Positions 3,240 through 44,846 of a stretch of DNA of 64,000 nucleotides are shown here, piece after piece. The number at the start of each line of letters is the position of its first letter. The stretch's first letter is position 1. The position numbers and the translations under genes were made by a program. The notes under the pieces are model-generated. The model was not told the DNA's origin. It did not search any database and saw only the letters and a list, made by a program, of their open reading frames with translations. Origin of the DNA: Gammaproteobacteria bacterium (GTDB lineage Bacteria > Pseudomonadota > Gammaproteobacteria > Pseudomonadales > Azotimanducaceae); NCBI GenBank assembly GCA_026713185.1, contig JAPOOX010000258.1, forward strand, positions 1 to 64,000, written 5' to 3'.

Positions 3240-3330
3240 GGAGAGGTGGCCGAGTGGCTGAAGGCGCTCCCCTGCTAAGGGAGTATGGGTTAATAGCCCA
3301 TCGAGGGTTCGAATCCCTCCTTCTCCGCCA
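3240..3330 (+). tRNA. tRNA-Ser (anticodon GCT), integration target
   Basis: A 91-base class II tRNA with a long variable arm. The acceptor GGAGAGG pairs with CTTCTCC (one G-T), CCA is encoded, and the anticodon loop CTGCTAA (anticodon GCT, reading AGC/AGU) lies between CTCCC and GGGAG. Its 3' end from 3295 is repeated exactly at 11786-11821, so this tRNA is the attachment site of the defense island. The gene is intact because the element restores the 3' end. Confidence 0.97.
3295..3330 (+). repeat. attL core (3' end of tRNA-Ser)
   Basis: 36 bases from the variable arm through the T arm and acceptor to CCA, identical to 11786-11821. Going further upstream, seven more bases match with one mismatch (43 bp in all). 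Confidence 0.9.
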
Positions 3331-3347
3331 ATAAAACAATAACTTAG

Positions 3348-3418
3348 GTGTCCATCGTGTCTAACTTTAGGGGTGTTTTGGGATAGTTTAGGCTCCAGTT
3401 AGATACGATTTTGGACAC
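3348..3418. repeat. Imperfect inverted repeat just inside attL
   Basis: GTGTCCATCGTGTCTAAC (3348-3365) faces GTTAGATACGATTTTGGACAC-type sequence at 3398-3418. The arms match apart from one substitution and a 3-base insertion. It sits 17 bp inside the island end, where integrase arm-type or excisionase sites usually lie; that role is inferred. It could instead be a terminator for the ABC-3C operon, which ends at 3435. Confidence 0.45.
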
Positions 3419-3434
3419 GATTTTCACTTTATTG

Positions 3435-5375
3435 CTAGTCGACTCGAGGCCAATCGTCGGGGACGAGCTTCAACCCCTGGCGCCATCGCTCGACAACAGC
3501 GTCCTGGTACCAATCCTCGTTGATATCAGCATGCTCCGTGATCACCACTTGGAAGTGCGGCGCTCGCTCGTTGACGATGTCGAAGACGAAACGAAACATA
3601 CGCAAGACTGCCTCGCGATCATTCTCGCTGACAGTAGACATCGAGCCGTCGGTGTCTTTTTCTGGAGGGAAGTACACCTGCGAGGGTTGGTCCAAGAACA
3701 GAAATCTTGGGACTGGCCGATCGCGATCTACGAACCATTCATGGAGAGCAAGGTGTCCGATCAGGTGGTAGCCGACCCAATTTTCGCCGCTACCCATGCG
3801 GTCCATCGGAACGGGGCCGTCCGGTGTATCAGCAACAATGGTCAGCTTCTTGAGATCCAAACGTAGCGGCGATGCCGAATGTTCCAGCTCTAGTGACCAC
3901 GCCCAATCACTCATGCGCCGGCCCAGAATCGACGTAATCGAATCAATTCGTTCCTTAACGCGTTCCTCGCTGAGTTCGGCCTCAAGGCTTTCACATTGAT
4001 CTCGCAAACGTTGTGCTTCGCGCTCGAGCGCTTGTGTGTCTGGCAGGTCCGGTAGACTTTCGAGATAAAGGCTAATGCGTCCCACGATAAGCGCGCGCCT
4101 CGTCGCTTCATCCCTTAGCTGTTGGACTCGGTCGCTAGTGCTTTGCACCACCTCCATCTCTGCACGGTTTCTGGACAGTTCCGCTTGAACAGCTTGCAGT
4201 TTGGACTCGAGCTCCGAAATCGCCCGCTCTACCTGCGGGGCCGCTCGTTTCACGGTGTCCAGCCGCGATGTGATATCGGTCAGGACTCCCTGTAGCTGCC
4301 CCACTTCTGGGAGATCCGCAGGTTCACCGAGGTCCTGGGAGCACAACGGGCAGGTATGAGTCGGATCTGACCCGTCGAAGATCCCGATAGATACTAACCG
4401 CGCGCGTTGCTCCGAGGCTTCGCGTGAAAAGGCCGATTCATCATGTTCGAAAGAGCGCGCGGCCGCGATTTCATCTCTTAGCTGTCTCTGCTGACGCTGT
4501 AGTTGATTTCTTTCGTCGCTGAGGCGCTGATATTCTGTTTCGTCCGGCGCATCTACATCGATTGCAGTTCCGGGCAGATCTGCGACTCCGCGAAGAGCAG
4601 AGACCACCTCTTCCCATGTGCTCGCCAACGACGTTGACAAGCCGGCGTTACGCGCTTCCGCGAGGAGCGTCGATGCTTTTGTAACGCCATCACCTCGCAA
4701 CGACGAAAGCTCTCGAAGTTGCCTTTCATGTTGACGCAACCGGTCTTTGAGGCGCTTCAACTCTTCGCGCCTTTTAAGGTAGTCGTCGTCGACAGCCCCC
4801 AAGAGATATGGCAGCGTGTCTTTGAGGGCTTGCGCGATGAAGTTGTCTGCTGCGCCATGAAATAACTGTTGGCGACGAATGATTTCATCCTGTGGCTGAA
4901 AACAGAGCGCCAAGGCATGTCGTATAGTCGCTGACAGGGGTGGTCGCGTTTGCCCTTCAGGGGGCTCGTGAAGGTTATCGCTGATCCCTCCCCAGCTGGT
5001 AAGGAGACCTCCGAGCCCTCTCGTGTTTGTTGTCTGCCGTAGGCTGCGATGTTCGGGGATGACGACTTCGTCACCGATGTCGACAAAGCAATCCTCGCTA
5101 GACGCAGCTGTTGGATCTGGACAGCGGCGCGCAACAAACGCTTCACCAGTTTTCAGTTTGAATCGTAATCCGAACCAGGAAACGGAGCGTCGAATTGGTC
5201 CCTCAGGAACTCGACATTCACCGGCACCGAAGCAGTAGTCGACGATGTCAACCAGCGCCGACTTTCCAGTTTTCGATGCACCAGTGATGATATTGACCTG
5301 TCCAGATCTTAAGGAAAGGACGCGTCGTTGGCCGTCGTGACTGTAAATCACTATGTCGAGAATTTGCATGGTCAT
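3435..5375 (-). CDS. ABC-3C system ATPase (DUF3732, Rad50-like)
   Basis: A 646-residue SMC/Rad50-like ATPase. The Walker A motif GASKTGKS is at residues 32-39, followed by DIVDYCFG. Two long heptad-rich coiled-coil stretches flank a zinc-hook-like TCPLCSQDLG. The C-terminal half has a signature-like MGSGENWVGYHL and the Walker B stretch FLFLDQPSQVYFP, which is diagnostic of the DUF3732 family. In ABC-three-component systems this protein is thought to act as the sensor/motor that controls the effector. I start it at the ATG at 5375, which overlaps the middle-component stop by 4 bp (ATGA); the upstream extension to 5432 is the preceding gene in another frame. It is the last gene of the operon. 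Confidence 0.85.
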   Translation of the reverse strand: MTMQILDIVIYSHDGQRRVLSLRSGQVNIITGASKTGKSALVDIVDYCFGAGECRVPEGPIRRSVSWFGLRFKLKTGEAFVARRCPDPTAASSEDCFVDIGDEVVIPEHRSLRQTTNTRGLGGLLTSWGGISDNLHEPPEGQTRPPLSATIRHALALCFQPQDEIIRRQQLFHGAADNFIAQALKDTLPYLLGAVDDDYLKRREELKRLKDRLRQHERQLRELSSLRGDGVTKASTLLAEARNAGLSTSLASTWEEVVSALRGVADLPGTAIDVDAPDETEYQRLSDERNQLQRQQRQLRDEIAAARSFEHDESAFSREASEQRARLVSIGIFDGSDPTHTCPLCSQDLGEPADLPEVGQLQGVLTDITSRLDTVKRAAPQVERAISELESKLQAVQAELSRNRAEMEVVQSTSDRVQQLRDEATRRALIVGRISLYLESLPDLPDTQALEREAQRLRDQCESLEAELSEERVKERIDSITSILGRRMSDWAWSLELEHSASPLRLDLKKLTIVADTPDGPVPMDRMGSGENWVGYHLIGHLALHEWFVDRDRPVPRFLFLDQPSQVYFPPEKDTDGSMSTVSENDREAVLRMFRFVFDIVNERAPHFQVVITEHADINEDWYQDAVVERWRQGLKLVPDDWPRVD

Positions 5376-5869
5376 GGGCGGACCCCGATTAGCGCAAGCA
5401 CGGTTGCGCCGTTTCCGGTCTGGGCAAACCACCTACCAACGAAATCAGCGCGCCGCGCGCAAAGACGCACTTCATCGCTCGTATCTTGAAGTGAACGGTT
5501 GATCGGTCGCCGCCAGTTGTCATTCGGTCGAAGTCGACCGTTTTCAATCTGGATTGCGCCTTGCATACCGCCGAATAGAATGCCTTCTCTCGTAAAAGTG
5601 ACGAGCGCCTTCGACCGGGTAGCAATTCGCCCCGGCGCAAGAGGATTGGTACTGATCCAGACCGCCAACGACGTGCGAGTATCGCGAGGAAGTGCTTCTC
5701 TTGTTGCGCGGTGAAGCACCATTGGCAAGACCAAGAATGATTCTTCAAAAGACAAGCCGTCAGGATTGACGCTGACGTAGCCCTTTGCGGCCCACCAAAG
5801 AAGCAACGAACAGAACGCCGGGTTCAATAGCACTTGTTCTTCTCTCGATCGCTCGGTCCACTGAGTCAT
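5372..5869 (-). CDS. ABC-3C system middle component
   Basis: A 165-residue protein with the N-terminal signature LLNPAFCSLLLWWAAKGY and the FEESFLVLPMVLH stretch typical of 'three component ABC system middle component' proteins, small helical adaptors between the nuclease effector and the DUF3732 ATPase. It overlaps the effector stop and the ATPase start by 4 bp each (both ATGA), so all three are probably translationally coupled and made in fixed ratio. Its length is normal for the family. No catalytic motif is visible, consistent with an adaptor role. Confidence 0.83.
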   Translation of the reverse strand: MTQWTERSREEQVLLNPAFCSLLLWWAAKGYVSVNPDGLSFEESFLVLPMVLHRATREALPRDTRTSLAVWISTNPLAPGRIATRSKALVTFTREGILFGGMQGAIQIENGRLRPNDNWRRPINRSLQDTSDEVRLCARRADFVGRWFAQTGNGATVLALIGVRP

Positions 5870-7095
5870 GTCGCTCCCGTCCCAGTGCGTAGTAGATCAG
5901 CGAGGTGCTCTCGAAAGTCGATGTGCCAACCGACGCGCAGGTCGTCTGAGAGCATATGCAAAGATCCGCGACTGACAAACGGTTCTGTCACATACGGGCG
6001 AATTGGTAACAACGTCTGTTCGGCCCATTTGAGAAGCTTGCGAGCCGCAGCCTCCTTCACGTCAGCGGTCGCAGAGTCCCAGAGTTCATCACGCATGGCC
6101 TCGAACGTGAGCTCCCACTCTTCTACGAGGCGCTTTTCGTATTTGTGCAAGTCCATGCCGACGATCAAGTCGTCTCGCAGCCAACGAGATCGTTGTTCGA
6201 ATGCTCGATAGTAGTCTCGTATTGCAGCCGCGATCCGGCGCTTTCCGGCTTTTGTGAGTTCAATCTGTCGAACGAAGTTCGAGTTCTTGTGCTCTTCCCT
6301 TTTGGCTTCGTCAAGGGAGAATTCGAGGAGGTCATCGTCAATGGGAAGTGCTTGTTGCTTGAACTGCTCTCGCAAGTCTGACATCTGCGATTCCAGTTCG
6401 ACTGAACCAATACGGTCGGTTGCCGCCATAGAAAGCTGCTGCAAAACACGGCGGAGCCACCAACCTTCAAGTCGTTGAAGGAACGCAGCATGGTGCTCGC
6501 GGCCAGCGGCCCAATAAACCTCTTGCGTAAGTTCGTCGTCGAGGTTTGTTACTGAGGGTGCGGAATCAAGTACCGTTACTTTTTCAAGTATGTCGAGCCT
6601 TGTCGACTCGTCGACAGCCAGGAAAGCTTCATAGGCCTTGGCGTTTGCTTGGTTGATAGACGTCGTTGCGGTTGCGGTCAGCGTGTATTGAGCGGCGAAT
6701 ACGTCTCTCTGTGAGGCCCGAAGATTCCATGCCGCACTTCCGCTTGGCGCGGATGACGTCGTGACAAGGTATAGATTGCTTTGCGGGGTGACTTCTCCGG
6801 ACAGGCGGCCTTCGAACCATATGCGCAGCGTCTTCCATAGGTCCGAACTGGCATCGGTCAAAGTACCGGTGCCACTCTTATGATGCTTAGTCTGAAGAAG
6901 CTCGGTAGGCTCGCCACCTGTTGTTTCAAACGTAACATCGTCGAGCGTTTCGATGCCGACTAAGAACTCGGGGTCCGTCTTCAGCCGCCTAAGCGTCCAG
7001 AGCAATGCCGACCGAACTTGATAAAGGTAGCCAAGCGTTGCATCGACGGCGGAAAAATCAGATAGACCTTGGTGGGTCACTGCTGTTTTCCCCAT
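5866..7095 (-). CDS. ABC-3C system effector with N-terminal nuclease-like domain
   Basis: A 409-residue protein. Near the N-terminus is an acidic pair (D52-D53) followed by E65-L-L-Q-T-K70, which fits a PD-(D/E)XK nuclease core of the Mrr/Cap4 (DUF4297) kind. The N-terminal segment SDFSAVDATLGYLYQVRSAL resembles other DUF4297-like proteins, where it recognises DNA. The rest (about 200-409) is charged, helical and typical of the C-terminal region of ABC-3C effectors. Inferred role: degrading DNA once the ATPase senses infection. The ATG at 7095 overlaps the stop of the recombinase remnant (7077), so this gene was formerly expressed behind the integrase. No separate promoter is obvious. Confidence 0.75.
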   Translation of the reverse strand: MGKTAVTHQGLSDFSAVDATLGYLYQVRSALLWTLRRLKTDPEFLVGIETLDDVTFETTGGEPTELLQTKHHKSGTGTLTDASSDLWKTLRIWFEGRLSGEVTPQSNLYLVTTSSAPSGSAAWNLRASQRDVFAAQYTLTATATTSINQANAKAYEAFLAVDESTRLDILEKVTVLDSAPSVTNLDDELTQEVYWAAGREHHAAFLQRLEGWWLRRVLQQLSMAATDRIGSVELESQMSDLREQFKQQALPIDDDLLEFSLDEAKREEHKNSNFVRQIELTKAGKRRIAAAIRDYYRAFEQRSRWLRDDLIVGMDLHKYEKRLVEEWELTFEAMRDELWDSATADVKEAAARKLLKWAEQTLLPIRPYVTEPFVSRGSLHMLSDDLRVGWHIDFREHLADLLRTGTGAT

Positions 7096-7488
7096 TTACT
7101 CAAGACTTTCTGCCCGGCATCACTGGCGTCCTTCGGGATCCACCGATAGTAGACCCGCGCCGTGAACATCCAGTCGGTATGACCCATTTGCGCGGCGACC
7201 CACTGCGGTGACTCGCCCGCCATCAACGACATCGAAGCGAACGTATGACGCATCTGGCCGGGTGGACGATAGCGAACGCCAGCCCGTCGGGAAAGCGTGT
7301 TCCATTGCCGAGTACGAAGCGCCTGGTCGCCTGTCCATCGTACCCGCGTATGCAGATTCTGGAAAACCTCGGCACCCTTCAGGAATGTATGTTCCTTCTG
7401 AGCCTTGAGCGCGGCAAGCGCCGGTGGCAGGAGGTTGACCGTGCGCTCGCCAGCTTCCGTTTTGTATCCTCGATTTCATACGCGTCCT
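7077..7488 (-). pseudogene. C-terminal remnant of a tyrosine recombinase (island integrase)
   Basis: Reading the minus strand and ending at TGA 7077, the frame encodes TEAGERTVNLLPPALAALKA and later PGQMRHTFASMSLMAGE, WVAAQMGHTDW and VYYRWIP. These are box II Arg (RHTFA), the GH motif and the nucleophilic Tyr of phage-type integrases. The N-terminal two thirds are gone: hairpin element copy A abuts at 7489 and no integrase sequence continues beyond it. At about 7461-7466 the upstream frame (DAYEIEDTK) and the downstream frame (TEAGERT) are joined only by a one-base slip in an A run, suggesting a further frameshift. It presumably once mobilised this island. Not functional as it stands. Confidence 0.8.
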
Positions 7489-7584
7489 GAATAAATGGGT
7501 TCGGAGTAAAGTGCCGGAGTAAAACGTCACGCTTTTGCAGCAACGTTGAGTTTTACTCCGGCACTTTACTCCGACCCCACTATT
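7489..7584. repeat. Hairpin element copy A
   Basis: Starts with GAATAAATGGGTTCGG, a diverged form of the family left end GAACAAACGGGGTCGG. It continues through the 5' arm (GGAGTAAA twice), the 26-base centre starting CGTCACGCTTTTGC, and the 3' arm to CCGACCCCACTATT. It truncates the integrase remnant. In the same orientation as copies B, D and E. Confidence 0.9.
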
Positions 7585-7600
7585 CAGGCAACTAGGGAGG

Positions 7601-7639
7601 TCAATTTTATTGTCCGATAGGGGGTCAAAATATTGTCCG
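7601..7639. repeat. Tandem terminal-like repeats
   Basis: TCAATTTTATTGTCCG (7601-7616) and TCAAAATATTGTCCG (7625-7639) are direct repeats 24 bases apart, followed by TTGACAAC. They look like the end of a lost insertion sequence, but no transposase is nearby and I cannot assign a family. Confidence 0.35.
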
Positions 7640-7710
7640 TTGACAACAGTTTCGTCTCACCCAAAAGACCCAATAAGATTCGAATGGATGCTTCCCGATC
7701 AACTTCGCGT

Positions 7711-10700
7711 CTACCCCAGTCTATCGTTTAATTCCTGAAATAATTCGTTGTCATTAATACCGGGTTGTGCTTCCGTAATCATTCCTACTAAACTTTCCAG
7801 CGAGACTTCATCACTTTCATCATGTACTACCCTATGCATTAGAATCAACGTTGCACACGGATACCGTCTTACCAATTTGCAGTCCTTCTCTTTGCCGATA
7901 AGTTTACGTAGGACAGAACTGTATTCCTCCTGCATAAGGACATCCTTAATCGTCTCGACCGCTTCAGGAAACGCTGCATCTGTCTCCGATGCCATCCACG
8001 CTAACCATCTGGACAGTTCTGGCGATCGATCTTTGGGGCGTGTAGGCCACACCTCTTTGAACCACGGACCAACCGTTTCCCGCCATAGTGTCGAGGATTT
8101 CTTGTCCGCACCCTGGAGAATATCGCGAAGCGCCATCGCAGCAAAAATCAAACCCCGAGGGCTCAGTTGCCACAAAACGTCTTTCGCCTCTACCGTATCG
8201 ATCCCTCGTCCAATCGGAATCGCCATATGCACGAATACTCTGATTGCTTTAGAGTGTACTCGAATTGGAATAAGATCTAAATTCTTAAGTACCTTGAGAA
8301 ATGATGACTTGAATGCCTTCAGAAGATCTGACGTCCAACTCAAGTGAAGAAAGTACGCCTCCCACAGGTATGGGTCAAACATCTCTTGATCCTCAGGATC
8401 CATCCGCACAAAGAATGTACGCTGCGTCCAATCGGGATCAATCCGGAAAAGAGCGAATAACATTGGCGCCATGCTTACACGCGCCAGCTTGACGGATGGA
8501 TCCTCGCTAGCGACCAACCGATTAAAGTCCAATTTGAGCAGTCTCGGGAAACCCGTATTCTGCCCCGGTAAAGCCTTCGGAATCTGTTCCGCCATTTCCT
8601 GATATAGCACCTTTCCCAAAATGCCGCCGGCATGAGTTGTCGCTGTATCAAGATTCAGATCACCACTCGGTGCAGCACTATTCAATGAAGCCTTCCATAT
8701 TCGCCGCCACACCTGTTGTCTGAGACGTTTTCCAAGTCTTAGCCGGTTATTCTCCAGCCATCTGGCAGCCTGGTCTGCTAATCCTGTTAATGCTTGCGAC
8801 GACATCCCGCTCAGAAGGATCGCGACTTCCTTCTGCCCTTCATCCAGCTGCTTTCCCCCTTTGTTCTGATTCCATTCGCTGAGAATCATGTACCACGGAG
8901 GAATTGGCCACACACCCCGAGCCGCTGCGTCCCTCAACAACCGCAAGGCCCCTGAAAAATCCTTCTTGACAAACCCGGCCCATCCACCGCCACAATCCCA
9001 TGGATGGGAATCGTTCTGTGCTTGCGTTTCCGACCACTTAAGAAATTGCTCAATTGTCATACCAGCAAAATTTTCGAGAGATTCCCCATCTCCAAAGCGA
9101 AAGCCGTGGAGATTAGAAGACCCAAAGACAACGAATTCCTCAGATTGATCACCACATGGATTCCATTGCCTTTCACCTCGAATGTGTTCATACGTCTCTA
9201 GTGCATGTTGTGGCAGTCTTGCTCCAGACTCTATCAGTTTATACAAACGCAATAATATTGCTCTGTCGCGCCAGTTCTCCCTCTCTTTCACCGACAAACC
9301 GGCGCTATACGCGCCCTCTGGAGGACCCTGTAGGATCGCCTCGATAAGACGAGCAAGTCGATCTGACGTTATATCGGCTCCTCGCTTCCTGAGAAATCGC
9401 GACGTTTCCCTCAACGTGTAGATATCCCAAAGTGCAGGCTTGGAGCCATCCAGCAATATCTCCATACCACCGTCGATATCGGCGTCTGATGGCTCCGTCG
9501 AAGTGTACAGAACGAGACGCCTAAAAATCGGATATGGAAGTGACCGCCACCGACCCACGAGTCGTGATTCGGCAGCTTGATCCCCGCAAGCGAGAAGAGC
9601 GTCACGCGAATCCCGCACAAGTCCAATTAGATGTGTCCAGATTGGCGCGTACTCGTTCTGCTTATGTTGACTCACGGATGGATATTGGGAATATGTCTTG
9701 TCGAAGTCTTCATTGGCCATACCGAATTCATGAAACCAAACCATTGCTTCGTTTAGCCGTGTGGTGAGGTCATCGGCCATCATCGCCAACGATTTAGTCC
9801 AGTCCTCGGATTGCTCTTGATAATCACTAAATTCATGGTCCTCTTTGATACCAACCAGTTCCATTTCAATCTCGTACCAATCACTTGGACACTCGGGATT
9901 CTGGTTCCTCTCATCCTGAAGATAGTCAGGCTTCACTTTGAAAGTCGGGATTGGCCGCACGCGATTGAGGAAAGTTAATGTTGACAATGGCACACTTGAT
10001 GACACACGGACAAGGTCGCCATAATCTAAATCATCACTCACAATCCTTTCCGATAGCATGTGCGAGTAACCATAGTCTGCCAGTACCTGCCAAAGTTTCC
10101 TTGCATACGATGGGAAACCTGTTCCCTCTTTGTGCTTTAGTTCTTGCTGGACAAAGTTGCGCATCTCGACGTGCAAGACAGCACCCTCTCGCAAGACCCA
10201 GTCAATTGCCGCCTGGCTCTCCAGACAATTGCAAACCCATCGTCCCAGTTGATGTGTGGCCGGGTGAAGCTCGCCGTAATCGTTAAGCTGGCGAGCAACC
10301 AGCGATACACTGATTTCCTTACCATCATCCTTTCGACCAGTGGGAAGACAGAACAATCCCTGCTTCTGTAAGTGTGGAATCCATTCGGGCGACGGGCGAC
10401 GATCTCCATTGAGGTCTGCGAAGTACTTTGCAACCTTGGGGTCTTTGAGTGCCCAAACCATCTCCCGTACGGTCGTATCCTCCTCACTCGACGCAGGCGG
10501 ATTCTGCCCAAGGAGTGCCACTTTCTGTTTACGGTCTGATATTCCCTGACGATGATCGTTTGCCCAAGCTTCCAATTCCGTCCAAAACGCATCGTAGTTC
10601 CCCTTCTTATCAAACGGAAGAGGCGTAATTCCGGAAAGTTTCCACTCCCTTTCTGACTTTTCTCGTGTGCCACTATCGGCATTGCTTTCGTAAGAGGTGA

Positions 10701-11466
10701 ATGCGAAAGGCTCTTTGAATTGCTGCGAATCTCTTTCCCTTGCCACCGCCAATGCTCTCACCAAGTAGCTCATTGTTGGATCTTCCAAACTGTATCCAAT
10801 GAACACGACATGGAAGTGCCGGAATAGCTCGACGACAAACCGGAGCGCCCACCCTTCCAGCATGTAAGCCATGCCGAAATCACCTGTCGTCAATACCAGT
10901 TCTCGGTCAACGGGCGAGCTACCCAATCTGCCGTGTAGATACACCAACCCTTTGAATGTCTTTGGTTTAGCCGGCGGTAAAGCGGGCGCAACAGAAACAG
11001 TCATTTCTCTATCAAAATGTTTGTCACGCCTCAGCTTCCGATATGCCCTTTCGAAAAGTGTATCGAAATTTGTGGTGACTAAACGTCCATCCTTGGAATC
11101 AAGGTCCGCCAATCGAACCAGCGTCTCGTGATTATGGAGCGCTCTTGCTTGCTTGGAGAGATAATAGCGTACACGTTCACGCACCTTCTTTGGATCGTAG
11201 CCATCTAGATTAGGTGTCTCCAGAATACTCAGCGCCTCATCGTATCGCTTCTGATCAAATGTTTCCCAGGTCAGTGCTTCCATCGACCCCGGTTTGCAGT
11301 TGTCCTTGGGGGGCAGAAGATCCGTGAGAATGGACTTCACCAATCCTTCGAACGACGGTAAGCCAGCACCCTTCGAGACGCCCGCACCGCAGAAGAACAC
11401 AACTTCACGGTCTTCGAGCGATTGACGTAACTTCTCTGGAATCAAGTCCACAGGCGCACGACACAC
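7711..11466 (-). CDS. DSR1-like defense-associated sirtuin (SIR2 domain, large C-terminal region)
   Basis: About 1,251 residues. The N-terminal SIR2 domain has the NAD-binding FFCGAGVSKGAGLPSF (about 25-40), VTTNFDTLFERAY (N about 133), the catalytic-type LHG (H about 178) and GYSLEDPTMSYLVRAL. The remaining ~900 residues are a helical region as in DSR1-type proteins (DUF4020-like), which sense phage proteins. Known members deplete NAD+ on infection and abort phage growth; that activity is inferred here. The longest frame begins with TTG at 11517, but a GTG at 11466 has GAAGGGA 5 bases before it and is the start I prefer. Its base composition is lower in GC than the neighbouring ABC-3C genes, so the two systems may have separate origins. 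Confidence 0.8.
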   Translation of the reverse strand: MCRAPVDLIPEKLRQSLEDREVVFFCGAGVSKGAGLPSFEGLVKSILTDLLPPKDNCKPGSMEALTWETFDQKRYDEALSILETPNLDGYDPKKVRERVRYYLSKQARALHNHETLVRLADLDSKDGRLVTTNFDTLFERAYRKLRRDKHFDREMTVSVAPALPPAKPKTFKGLVYLHGRLGSSPVDRELVLTTGDFGMAYMLEGWALRFVVELFRHFHVVFIGYSLEDPTMSYLVRALAVARERDSQQFKEPFAFTSYESNADSGTREKSEREWKLSGITPLPFDKKGNYDAFWTELEAWANDHRQGISDRKQKVALLGQNPPASSEEDTTVREMVWALKDPKVAKYFADLNGDRRPSPEWIPHLQKQGLFCLPTGRKDDGKEISVSLVARQLNDYGELHPATHQLGRWVCNCLESQAAIDWVLREGAVLHVEMRNFVQQELKHKEGTGFPSYARKLWQVLADYGYSHMLSERIVSDDLDYGDLVRVSSSVPLSTLTFLNRVRPIPTFKVKPDYLQDERNQNPECPSDWYEIEMELVGIKEDHEFSDYQEQSEDWTKSLAMMADDLTTRLNEAMVWFHEFGMANEDFDKTYSQYPSVSQHKQNEYAPIWTHLIGLVRDSRDALLACGDQAAESRLVGRWRSLPYPIFRRLVLYTSTEPSDADIDGGMEILLDGSKPALWDIYTLRETSRFLRKRGADITSDRLARLIEAILQGPPEGAYSAGLSVKERENWRDRAILLRLYKLIESGARLPQHALETYEHIRGERQWNPCGDQSEEFVVFGSSNLHGFRFGDGESLENFAGMTIEQFLKWSETQAQNDSHPWDCGGGWAGFVKKDFSGALRLLRDAAARGVWPIPPWYMILSEWNQNKGGKQLDEGQKEVAILLSGMSSQALTGLADQAARWLENNRLRLGKRLRQQVWRRIWKASLNSAAPSGDLNLDTATTHAGGILGKVLYQEMAEQIPKALPGQNTGFPRLLKLDFNRLVASEDPSVKLARVSMAPMLFALFRIDPDWTQRTFFVRMDPEDQEMFDPYLWEAYFLHLSWTSDLLKAFKSSFLKVLKNLDLIPIRVHSKAIRVFVHMAIPIGRGIDTVEAKDVLWQLSPRGLIFAAMALRDILQGADKKSSTLWRETVGPWFKEVWPTRPKDRSPELSRWLAWMASETDAAFPEAVETIKDVLMQEEYSSVLRKLIGKEKDCKLVRRYPCATLILMHRVVHDESDEVSLESLVGMITEAQPGINDNELFQELNDRLG

Positions 11467-11745
11467 ATGTTTCCCTTCATGAAAATCTCCCTGACAAACG
11501 GCTTTGAAGTGCAGCAATTAAAGAGAAACTTCTATCTCTCTGCAACCTTGGAAACTTTACTGGCTCGTACTCTCGTACGTATGTTTATGCCGAAACTCCC
11601 AGTAATCTGACAATTTCATTGGGAGACGAACTGATCCGCTAATGGTCACTAACATTAATTCCCCGTTGATCGCGAAAGCCGGGGGCAGGTCTACGCGAAC
11701 TAATCCGAAATTTCGAGCAACCAACCCACTGTATGTTCCGCATTA

Positions 11746-11780
11746 CAACGTTGACTTTACTCCGACCCCACTATTTTTGG
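11746..11780. repeat. Hairpin element copy F (deleted, at attR)
   Basis: CAACGTTGA joined directly to CTTTACTCCGACCCC and the right end ACTATTTTTGG. Compared with full copies, the inner of the two tandem ACTCC repeats of the 3' arm and everything left of CAACG are missing. It ends five bases before the attR core. Otherwise 11467-11785 holds only the SIR2 gene's 5' region and no gene I can support. Confidence 0.75.
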
Positions 11781-11785
11781 TTAAA

Positions 11786-11821
11786 AGCCCATCGAGGGTT
11801 CGAATCCCTCCTTCTCCGCCA
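11786..11821. repeat. attR core
   Basis: A 36-base exact copy of the tRNA-Ser 3' end (3295-3330), without the rest of the tRNA. It marks the right end of the island. Confidence 0.9.
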
Positions 11822-22402: not shown

Positions 22403-22501
22403 GAACAAACGGGTCGGAGTAAAGTGCCGGAGTAAAACGTCACGCTTTTGCAGCAACGTTGAGTTTTACTCCGGCACTTTACTCTGACCCCACTATTTTT
22501 T
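22403..22501. repeat. Hairpin element copy B (upstream of hipBA)
   Basis: Left end GAACAAACGGGTCGG (one G fewer than C and E), tandem GGAGTAAA arm, the 26-base centre in the forward orientation, and the 3' arm with one change (ACTCTGACCCC) to ACTATTTTT. The rest of 22324-22616 is the AT-rich hipBA promoter region. Confidence 0.92.
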
Positions 22502-22616
22502 GAAGCAATTCCCTGACTTGGATGAAGGCGCCAGTCGATAAGGACTTGCAGTGTCAGATATATCGTAATATGCTTTCAAAAGCTGTTTATATCAATTAAT
22601 TTGCTCTTGAAGTGCT

Positions 22617-22958
22617 ATGTCTACACGGAACGCCCTCACAACATCCCCGCCCTACCCGGTCGAACAGACCATCAGACAGATTGGCGCCAACCTGCGCACT
22701 GCGCGCTTGCGGCGCAACCTGAGCATTGAACATGTAGCAGAGATAATCGGCGCAGGATCCCGGGCAATTCGAGCCGCTGAGCAAGGCAGGGTATCAACCG
22801 GTGTTGGAGTCTATATCGCGCTGCTGTGGGCCTACGATCTGTTGGACCCCGCATTGGAACTGGCGGACCCGGGCAAAGACGAGACAGGCTTGTCCTACTT
22901 GGCAGAAAAAGAACGACAACGTGCCCGCAACCGGACCATACTGGACAATGATTTCTGA
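22617..22958 (+). CDS. hipB: HipB-like XRE-family antitoxin
   Basis: 113 residues. A Cro/CI-type helix-turn-helix spans about 20-80 (IRQIGANLRTARLRRNLSIE and VAEIIGAGSRAIRAAEQGR), followed by a conserved YIALLWAYDLLDPALELADP segment and a charged tail. HipB binds and neutralises HipA and represses the operon. It overlaps hipA by 11 bp. The AT-rich region upstream is the likely autoregulated promoter, with hairpin element B just before it. Confidence 0.85.
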   Translation: MSTRNALTTSPPYPVEQTIRQIGANLRTARLRRNLSIEHVAEIIGAGSRAIRAAEQGRVSTGVGVYIALLWAYDLLDPALELADPGKDETGLSYLAEKERQRARNRTILDNDF

Positions 22959-24243
22959 ATTCAATCAGTCCGAATGTTTTGTCTATATCAACTTGCCAGG
23001 TGAGACAAGACCGGTCACTGCGGGTAAATTGGTCATTCGGCCTGATAAGTCAGGCCTGCCTCACGGGATGTTTGTCTACGGGAGAAGCTATCTGGACCGA
23101 CAGGACAAGGTGCCGATTGACCCTATCGAGTTGAAACTTTCTGACCGTGTTTATGAAACGCGCGCTTTGAAGGGCGTGTTCGGCGCCTTCCGGGATGCCG
23201 GCCCGGACCACTGGGGACGGCAGGTCCTGGAACGGCATGCGGGAAAGCCTGAACTGAGCGAACTGGATTATTTGCTTCTGTCGCCGGATGATCGGGCAGG
23301 CGCCTTGGGTTTTGGCTTGAGTCCGATAGCGCCGACTGAATCACCCGGGTTCAATCAAACCCTGGATCTGGCGCAACTGCAAAATGTTGCAATGGCTGTA
23401 GTTAATGACGAACCGCTTCCCGATGAGTCGTATAAGGAACAGGTTTTTGACCTGATGTTGGTCGGCACCTCCATGGGTGGGGCACGGCCCAAGACGGTTG
23501 TCGAAGATTATGAGGGATTGTGGCTGGCAAAGTTTAATCGCGAGGATGATAAGTGGAACAACGCCCGGGTGGAACATGCAATGTTGATGCTCGCCCGGTC
23601 TTGTGGCCTCACGTCAGCCACAAGCACCGTCGTTCAAGTCGGGAATCGTGATGTGTTGCTCGTCAAACGCTTCGACCGGGAGAAAACCGGGGAAGGCTAT
23701 ACCCGCGCCCGCATGCTCAGTGCCTTGACCTTGTTGCGCGCTGAGGATACTCACTCTGCACGCAGGAAATGGTCTTACCCTGTGCTGGCAGAAGAGTTGC
23801 GCCGAATGTCTGCAACGCCGGGTGAGAATGCCGAGGAACTGTTTCGGCGTATGTGTTTCAATGCATTAATCTCCAATATTGATGATCACCCGCGCAATCA
23901 CGCCGTTATTGCGAAAGGGCATGACTGGGAATTATCTCCTGCTTACGATTTGACTCCCTTCTCGCCTGTCAGCATTGAACGACGCGATCTGGCCATGATC
24001 TGCGGGGATGACGGCCGCCGCGCCAAGGCGGCAAACCTGCTGTCTCAATCAAACCGGTTCTGCTGGATAAAGACGCAGCGGCAAACATTCTGGATAACAT
24101 GCAAAAACAGATCAAGAGCACATGGTATGAAACGGCCTGCCGGGCAGGGGTTTCGGAATCCGACTGCAAAAAAATCAGCGGCACCTTTGTCTATGAAGGA
24201 TTCTTTTACGAACAAACGGGGTCGGAGTAAAGTGCCGGAGTAA
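22948..24243 (+). CDS. hipA: HipA-like serine/threonine kinase toxin, frameshifted near the C-terminus
   Basis: The frame encodes 431 residues. The couple domain (VYINLPGETRPVTAGKL), the P-loop-like FDLMLVGTSMGGARPK, the catalytic NALISNIDDHPRNHAVI (D312/D313) and the metal-binding PAYDLTPF (D334) are all present, so the kinase core is intact. After about residue 370 (near 24058) the protein changes to a Lys/Arg-rich tail. The +1 frame there reads on smoothly as LLDKDAAANILDNMQKQIKS and ends in TAA at 24228-24230, inside hairpin copy C. So a single-base loss probably replaced the last ~60 residues. HipA kinases phosphorylate tRNA synthetases or other targets and cause dormancy. Whether this version is active is unknown. 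Confidence 0.8.
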   Translation: MISEFNQSECFVYINLPGETRPVTAGKLVIRPDKSGLPHGMFVYGRSYLDRQDKVPIDPIELKLSDRVYETRALKGVFGAFRDAGPDHWGRQVLERHAGKPELSELDYLLLSPDDRAGALGFGLSPIAPTESPGFNQTLDLAQLQNVAMAVVNDEPLPDESYKEQVFDLMLVGTSMGGARPKTVVEDYEGLWLAKFNREDDKWNNARVEHAMLMLARSCGLTSATSTVVQVGNRDVLLVKRFDREKTGEGYTRARMLSALTLLRAEDTHSARRKWSYPVLAEELRRMSATPGENAEELFRRMCFNALISNIDDHPRNHAVIAKGHDWELSPAYDLTPFSPVSIERRDLAMICGDDGRRAKAANLLSQSNRFCWIKTQRQTFWITCKNRSRAHGMKRPAGQGFRNPTAKKSAAPLSMKDSFTNKRGRSKVPE

Positions 24244-24310
24244 AACTCAACGTTGCTGCAAAAGCGTGACGTTTTACTTCGGCACTTTACTCCGACCCCA
24301 CTATTTTTGG
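24210..24310. repeat. Hairpin element copy C (centre inverted)
   Basis: Left end GAACAAACGGGGTCGG and right end CCGACCCCACTATTTTTGG are oriented as in copies B and E, but the 26-base centre reads CTCAACGTTGCTGCAAAAGC, the reverse complement of the others. The 3' arm carries ACTTCGG instead of ACTCCGG. Its first 21 bases supply the last six codons and stop of the ancestral hipA frame. Confidence 0.93.
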
Positions 24311-35305: not shown

Positions 35306-35343
35306 GTCTTTTTGGAAAAACATTTACGATACCGGATGTACCC

Positions 35344-35434
35344 GTGGGGTCGGAGTAAAGTGCCGGAGTAAAATGTCACGCTTTTGCAGCAACGTTGAGT
35401 TTTACTCCGGCACTTTACTCCGACCCCACTATTT
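35344..35434. repeat. Hairpin element copy D (between recA and mutS)
   Basis: Perfect 30-bp arms at 35344-35373 and 35400-35429 (GTGGGGTCGGAGTAAAG... and complement) with a 26-base centre starting TGTCACGC. It lacks the family left end GAACAAAC and has GTACCC instead. It lies between the divergent promoters of recA and mutS, where cinA is found in Pseudomonas. Confidence 0.93.
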
Positions 35435-44750: not shown

Positions 44751-44846
44751 GAACAAACGGGGTCGGAGTAAAGTGCCGGAGTAAAACGTCACGCTTTTGC
44801 AGCAACGTTGAGTTTTACTCCGGCACTTTACTCCGACCCCACTATT
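44751..44846. repeat. Hairpin element copy E (between phyH 2 and nlpD)
   Basis: GAACAAACGGGGTCGG left end, tandem GGAGTAAA arm, 26-base centre (CGTCACGC...) in the common orientation, and 3' arm to CCGACCCCACTATT. As the two flanking genes converge here, the hairpin could also work as a bidirectional terminator. Confidence 0.92.

Follow-up and report, generated by a model that had tools for sequence, protein, structure and literature searches.

A dispersed palindromic repeat in a gammaproteobacterial genome with one centre reversed between constant ends

The window, a 64,000-nucleotide stretch of contig C200 in a gammaproteobacterial draft genome (G000), contains five full copies (A to E) and one partial copy (F) of a palindromic repeat of 95–96 bp. 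Every full copy is built in the same order, with an 8-nt left end, a 29-nt arm (GGGGTCGGAGTAAAGTGCCGGAGTAAAAC, with single-base departures among the copies), a 24-nt centre, the second arm and the right end ACTATT (Table 1). As single-stranded DNA, copy C folds at −36.8 kcal/mol (z −9.4), and Rfam recognizes two tRNAs only in the window and no known RNA at the repeats. A tRNA-bounded defence island spans positions 3240–11821, where hairpin A sits between the Lamassu-like and Dsr1-like systems and the partial copy F marks the right edge. Further downstream, a hipBA-like gene pair is flanked by hairpins B and C (22403–24305); hipA seems to change frame ahead of its terminus, at about 24050–24080, and in either frame the stop codon comes from the left arm of C.

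Table 1. Repeat copies, parts of copy C and neighbouring features, in window coordinates
Feature	Position	Strand	Remarks
tRNA-Ser	3240-3330		
Lamassu-like LmuABC genes	3435-7095		
Copy A	7489..7584	+	left end GAATAAAT; common centre orientation; ACTATT
Dsr1-like SIR2 gene	7711-11517		
Partial copy F	11746..11775	+	centre end in common orientation; shortened right arm; ACTATT
43-bp, 98% copy of tRNA-Ser 3' end	11779-11821		
Copy B	22403..22497	+	left end GAACAAAC; left arm minus one G; common centre orientation; ACTATT
HTH of hipBA-like pair	22617-22958		
HipA_C of hipBA-like pair	22801-24243		
Copy C, whole	24210-24305		
Copy C, left end GAACAAAC	24210..24217	+	read directly; also in B, E
Copy C, left arm, 29 nt	24218..24246	+	inverted-repeat pair I17, 97% complementary to right arm
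Copy C, centre, 24 nt	24247..24270	-	reverse complement of the A, B, D, E centre
Copy C, right arm	24271..24299	+	T24279 unlike every other alpha arm
Copy C, right end ACTATT	24300..24305	+	read directly
Copy D	35338..35433	+	left end GTACCCGT; common centre orientation; ACTATT
Copy E	44751..44846	+	left end GAACAAAC; perfect arms; common centre orientation; ACTATT

The centre reads GTCACGCTTTTGCAGCAACGTTGA in copies A, B, D and E and TCAACGTTGCTGCAAAAGCGTGAC, the exact reverse complement, in C. A sequence-only reading of this DNA had claimed that the centre of C is reversed relative to B and E while the flanks stay constant, and direct reading, repeat pairs and scores of both centres and ends bear it out. 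Copies A, B, D and E are direct repeats of one another (D1), whereas each forms an inverted repeat with C over 81–84 nt at 98–99% (pairs I1–I4). Once the outer 20 bases of each arm are removed, the centre of C scores 0.98 in reverse complement against A, B or E and 0.75 directly, with corresponding values of 0.95 and 0.73 against D. The ends, by contrast, agree in direct orientation: counted over the eight positions beside the core, C and E match at 8 on the left and 6 on the right (2 and 3 when crossed), and A and C at 6 and 6 (4 and 2 when crossed). The left-end score of C with B is only 3 in this ungapped count because B is one G short; by eye both copies read CGAACAAAC. For random window sequence, the chance of three of five 8-mers agreeing is about 2e-8, and that of five of five 6-mers about 2e-14. 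The comparison of C with A, B, D and E displays both centre orientations between unchanged arms and outer flanks, with A, D and the partial F adding to the common form.

Relative to ACTATT or ACTAAT, the common orientation is found in five of the six copies of this subfamily, alpha (A, B, D, E and F), and in all three of its sister alpha' (L013, L014 and the nested L008, assigned by its outer ends), leaving C as the sole exception; by this count, the common form is ancestral. When pairs with related centres were compared within genomes, a reversed centre between two clearly conserved ends appeared only in pairs of C with other alpha copies. In genome G006, the copies at L153:1639, L148:2259 and L152:806 have the left end GGCTTA in common, and the 8-nt centre of the first is apparently reversed, though the right ends differ and the centre identities (0.88 reversed vs. 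0.80 direct) are ambiguous and too close to count. Other reversed centres (L033 vs. L028 and L031; L191 vs. L193) lie between symmetric or unconserved ends and are hence uninformative.

The significance of C depends on whether its ends belong to the element. ACTATT terminates all five full copies and the partial F, and GAACAAAC opens B, C and E. The alpha' copies carry a different pair, with GGYTCC as left and ACTAAT as right end, in three of three cases (for L008 as the outer ends of the nested hairpin), and the ends of L013 and L014 match at 7 and 6 of 8 positions directly but at 0 and 1 when crossed. L010 and L012 have yet another pair, ACAAAT/ATTTGT, and the G000 copies at 88–93% to C lie on other contigs and represent types with other ends. 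Since sister subfamilies keep different conserved end pairs, which a single target preference would not predict, the sequence comparison favours inheritance, and the ends are most likely carried along by the element rather than being chance insertion sites. The objection that they might be independent insertion-site sequences is thereby disfavoured, the ends being common to independent loci and specific to the centre subfamily. Copy D has the alpha right end, while its left end GTACCCGT recurs at the start of L032:3151, whose centre is unrelated; judged from these sequences, its mosaic ends look like an exchange of parts. The empty site of C was sought through three hipA homologues (54–57% identity), which do not tell whether GAACAA was present beforehand, as each continues with 6–16 residues of unrelated sequence beyond a shared YxG close to its end. 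Inversion of the hipBA segment between B and C was also considered and rejected on paper, as each hairpin would then carry the reverse complement of an end, which is not seen.

Could C be an artefact of a short-read assembly graph traversed the wrong way through the hairpin? The genome is a draft of 352 contigs, and short k-mers are ambiguous here, the arms being near-perfect inverted repeats. Each junction of C is, however, decided by a single 31-mer (24217–24247 and 24270–24300). Its right arm has T24279, a base that no other alpha arm shows and that links the centre with the ACTATT side; in the G000 DNA examined, k-mers spanning this base are unique from k = 29 and recur once elsewhere at k = 21 to 25. 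With one deciding 31-mer per junction and a right-arm base found only in C, an assembly error, which the sequence-only reading had allowed for, becomes unlikely.

Copies at least 98% similar to C occur only on the window contig and nowhere else in the 3.38 Mb of G000. The alpha subfamily is confined to about 37 kb of C200 and its related subfamilies are scattered, a pattern that may reflect local spread or acquisition as a block. Matches to C were obtained in 10 of the 58 genomes searched, its own included, the others matching through the arms and without a C-type centre; among the matches listed for the six other genomes of the genus, likewise, none has such a centre. A 27-mer of the arm matches exactly in 18 stretches from named uncultured Proteobacteria, the majority labelled Gammaproteobacteria or a subgroup, and a 42-mer across the centre of C has no exact match in genome contigs outside its own and very near genomes. 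Spread by plasmid or phage was rejected: copy E has no match in plasmid and phage collections (blastn, E 0.001), and a 25-nt stretch of the centre has no exact match in viral contigs.

The arms point to the kind of element involved. TIRtrons, as described in excerpts of PMC3733652, consist of an IS200/IS605-type tyrosine transposase gene within long terminal inverted repeats (TIRs) unrelated to GTAG; their TIRs spread as dimers or clusters, and several share the motif GGGGWSAS. In genome G030, contig C55 encodes a 228-aa Y1 transposase (PF01797, 42.4 bits against a cut-off of 23) flanked on both sides by our arms as terminal inverted repeats (L175, 866 and 1772), and in G006 (C117) a gene 63% identical to it lies between arms at L153 848 and 1639, so that in both genomes a Y1 (HUH) tyrosine transposase gene is bounded by the repeat as its TIR. 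G000 itself retains a C-terminal transposase fragment (72 residues, 71% identical) that adjoins an arm close to where contig C243 ends; it also has a Y1 gene that is more distant and shows no arms in the stretch examined. Away from these genes, the G000 stretches examined contain 30 paired hairpins corresponding to TIR dimers. The sequence GGGGTCAG, found in G022 and some G000 copies, fits GGGGWSAS, and GGGGTCGG of the window copies misses it at one position. A GTAG REP identity was rejected: base composition over 8 flanking positions in 110 flanks of 55 copies contains no conserved GTAG tag beside the palindrome (55 of 56 hairpins, L190 being cut off by a contig end). Because the same arms bound a transposase gene in a related genome and adjoin a transposase fragment in G000, the sequences favour classing the window copies as the TIR dimers of a tyrosine-transposase (RAYT/TIRYT) element.

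In light of these results, we somewhat favour a reading of C as a non-autonomous, MITE-like TIR dimer whose centre was inverted in place by exchange between its arms, most plausibly via template switching. The hairpin would have inserted in the common form, and its centre would then have been inverted through exchange between its own two arms: a replicating strand would leave its template in one arm, copy the centre off the complementary strand and regain its own template in the other arm, inverting everything between the switch points and leaving the outer ends untouched. The geometry is exact, C being inverted only between its arms. Excerpts of PMC8604942 report arm homogenisation and spacer inversion, the latter with longer arms, as outcomes of template switching between inverted repeats, and it is because these are its two published outcomes, with loop inversion reported elsewhere as well, that we prefer this route. 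Homogenisation predicts that the two arms of a copy should co-vary, as they do in G000, where they agree at 25.24 of 26 positions against 24.28 when shuffled and none of 5000 shuffles reaches the observed value (29 copies), a signal inflated by common descent, given that copies of one lineage inherit their arm states together. Copy-specific extension of the palindrome into the flanks is similarly raised in G000 (4.2 of 8 vs. 2.97; 0 of 5000 shuffles; 30 copies). G006 shows neither effect clearly (12 copies; 2769 of 5000 shuffles for the arms and 617 of 5000 for the extension), and both are weak in G022 (108 of 5000 with 7 copies and 659 of 5000 with 9). These analyses drew on all contigs with matches in G000 and a subset of the pattern matches in G014, G022 and G007, the arms being scored in 52 of 56 hairpins overall and 29 of 30 in G000. 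The palindrome often runs 6–8 nt into copy-specific flanks (L007:1501, L008:1501, L010:1502, L028:1501, L033:959), with extensions such as GAATAGT, GATTAGT, GACAAAT and GAACTTT and a consensus GAATAAT ahead of GGGG; they could reflect a transposase guide/target pair or template-switch extension. Compound hairpins occur as well, namely a tandem partial duplication at L006:1139–1290 and a hairpin nested within the arms of another at L008:1475–1615.

The sequence-only reading had set exchange between the arms against insertion in the opposite orientation, and exchange does explain C better, since the flanks behave as element ends; intramolecular recombination as such is not singled out from template switching or conversion. 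The centre might instead have been overwritten by ectopic gene conversion from another alpha copy with the arms paired in opposite register, as the left and right arms are equivalent and a donor can pair either way round. The inverted centre of C has the same sequence as the centres of A, B and E, all copies closest to C share one contig, and the mosaic look of D would suit such traffic; nevertheless, a second copy is required, homologous pairing has a lower length limit near which the 29-nt arms lie, and with identical centres no tract boundary sets conversion apart, so that we hold this route to be rather unlikely. Quite unlikely, in our judgement, is a reversed insertion from a donor with symmetric ends, in which GAACAAAC would be target sequence and the element, being a palindrome, could transpose from either strand. 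IS200/IS605 elements do insert beside a short target sequence, the ends of L007 are symmetric (GAATAGT/ACTATTC), and the alpha left ends (GAACAAAC, GAATAAAT, GTACCCGT) vary more than the right; yet the eight left-end bases are common to three independent loci, and alpha' has another left end, a difference that one transposase target preference does not explain.

A transposase could also have excised the hairpin as single-stranded DNA and reinserted it strand-swapped between the same ends, for which the arm-bounded Y1 genes of G030 and G006 and the fragment beside an arm in G000 would provide the enzyme family; given that G000 has only this fragment near a contig end and a distant gene without arms, and that the excerpts of the literature consulted describe no such reaction, we regard it as very unlikely. 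A broader proposal, that arm-mediated and possibly transposase-driven exchange is the regular mode of evolution of transposase-linked hairpins, flipping centres and swapping ends, draws hints from the flip in C, the mosaic ends of D and the weak G006 case at L153:1639, and strikes us as doubtful. Under template switching between the arms, C is probably a single in-place inversion, a rare mutation of the repeat, and one old event among six alpha copies suffices. A regulatory switch finds no support: Pfam analysis of 10 window proteins identifies no recombinase beside C, its neighbours being the HTH protein, the HipA-like protein and one without a family, and nothing seen here points to a dedicated recombinase or to regulation.

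If our reading is correct, C represents, in a bacterial transposase-linked repeat, a clean natural case of the spacer inversion documented in yeast, rRNA and chloroplasts, and such inversions can be scored without strain collections wherever dispersed repeats have asymmetric ends. It also advises caution, in that the direction in which the middle of a palindromic repeat reads is no guide to the orientation of its insertion, and C provides no evidence for a regulatory switch.

REPINs are RAYT-linked inverted pairs of short repeats dispersed in a bacterial genome. The window repeats resemble them as dispersed, transposase-linked inverted pairs but differ in having no conserved GTAG tag and in folding as one long hairpin rather than two. 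Among the titles listed in searches for flips in REP or MITE repeats, none was on that subject, and of the 20 papers matching four 14-mers of the motif, the 19 listed include no title on bacterial repeats. With TIRtrons, the family shares a transposase gene bounded by TIRs and dispersed TIR dimers, whereas its arms are about 29 nt and its centre is non-conserved, and the excerpts of PMC3733652 contain no fixed-end inversion of a centre. The closest parallels to C come from spacers and loops reversed between conserved arms, accompanied by arm homogenisation, in yeast genes and rRNA (excerpts of PMC8604942 and PMC8794818), the latter including hairpins from bacteria; there, the spacers are much shorter, with only 2–5 bp altered in the yeast cases (PMC8604942), and the inversions are shown by phylogenies, whereas C emerges from dispersed copies in one genome. 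The small inversions of plastomes, as excerpted from PMC6824564, likewise present the loop of a stem-loop in both orientations with the stem unchanged, at orthologous chloroplast sites across species rather than in dispersed copies within one bacterium, and the 24-bp centre of C falls at the upper end of their 4–24 bp loop range. The kind of mutation is thus already known, and C probably adds a further case.
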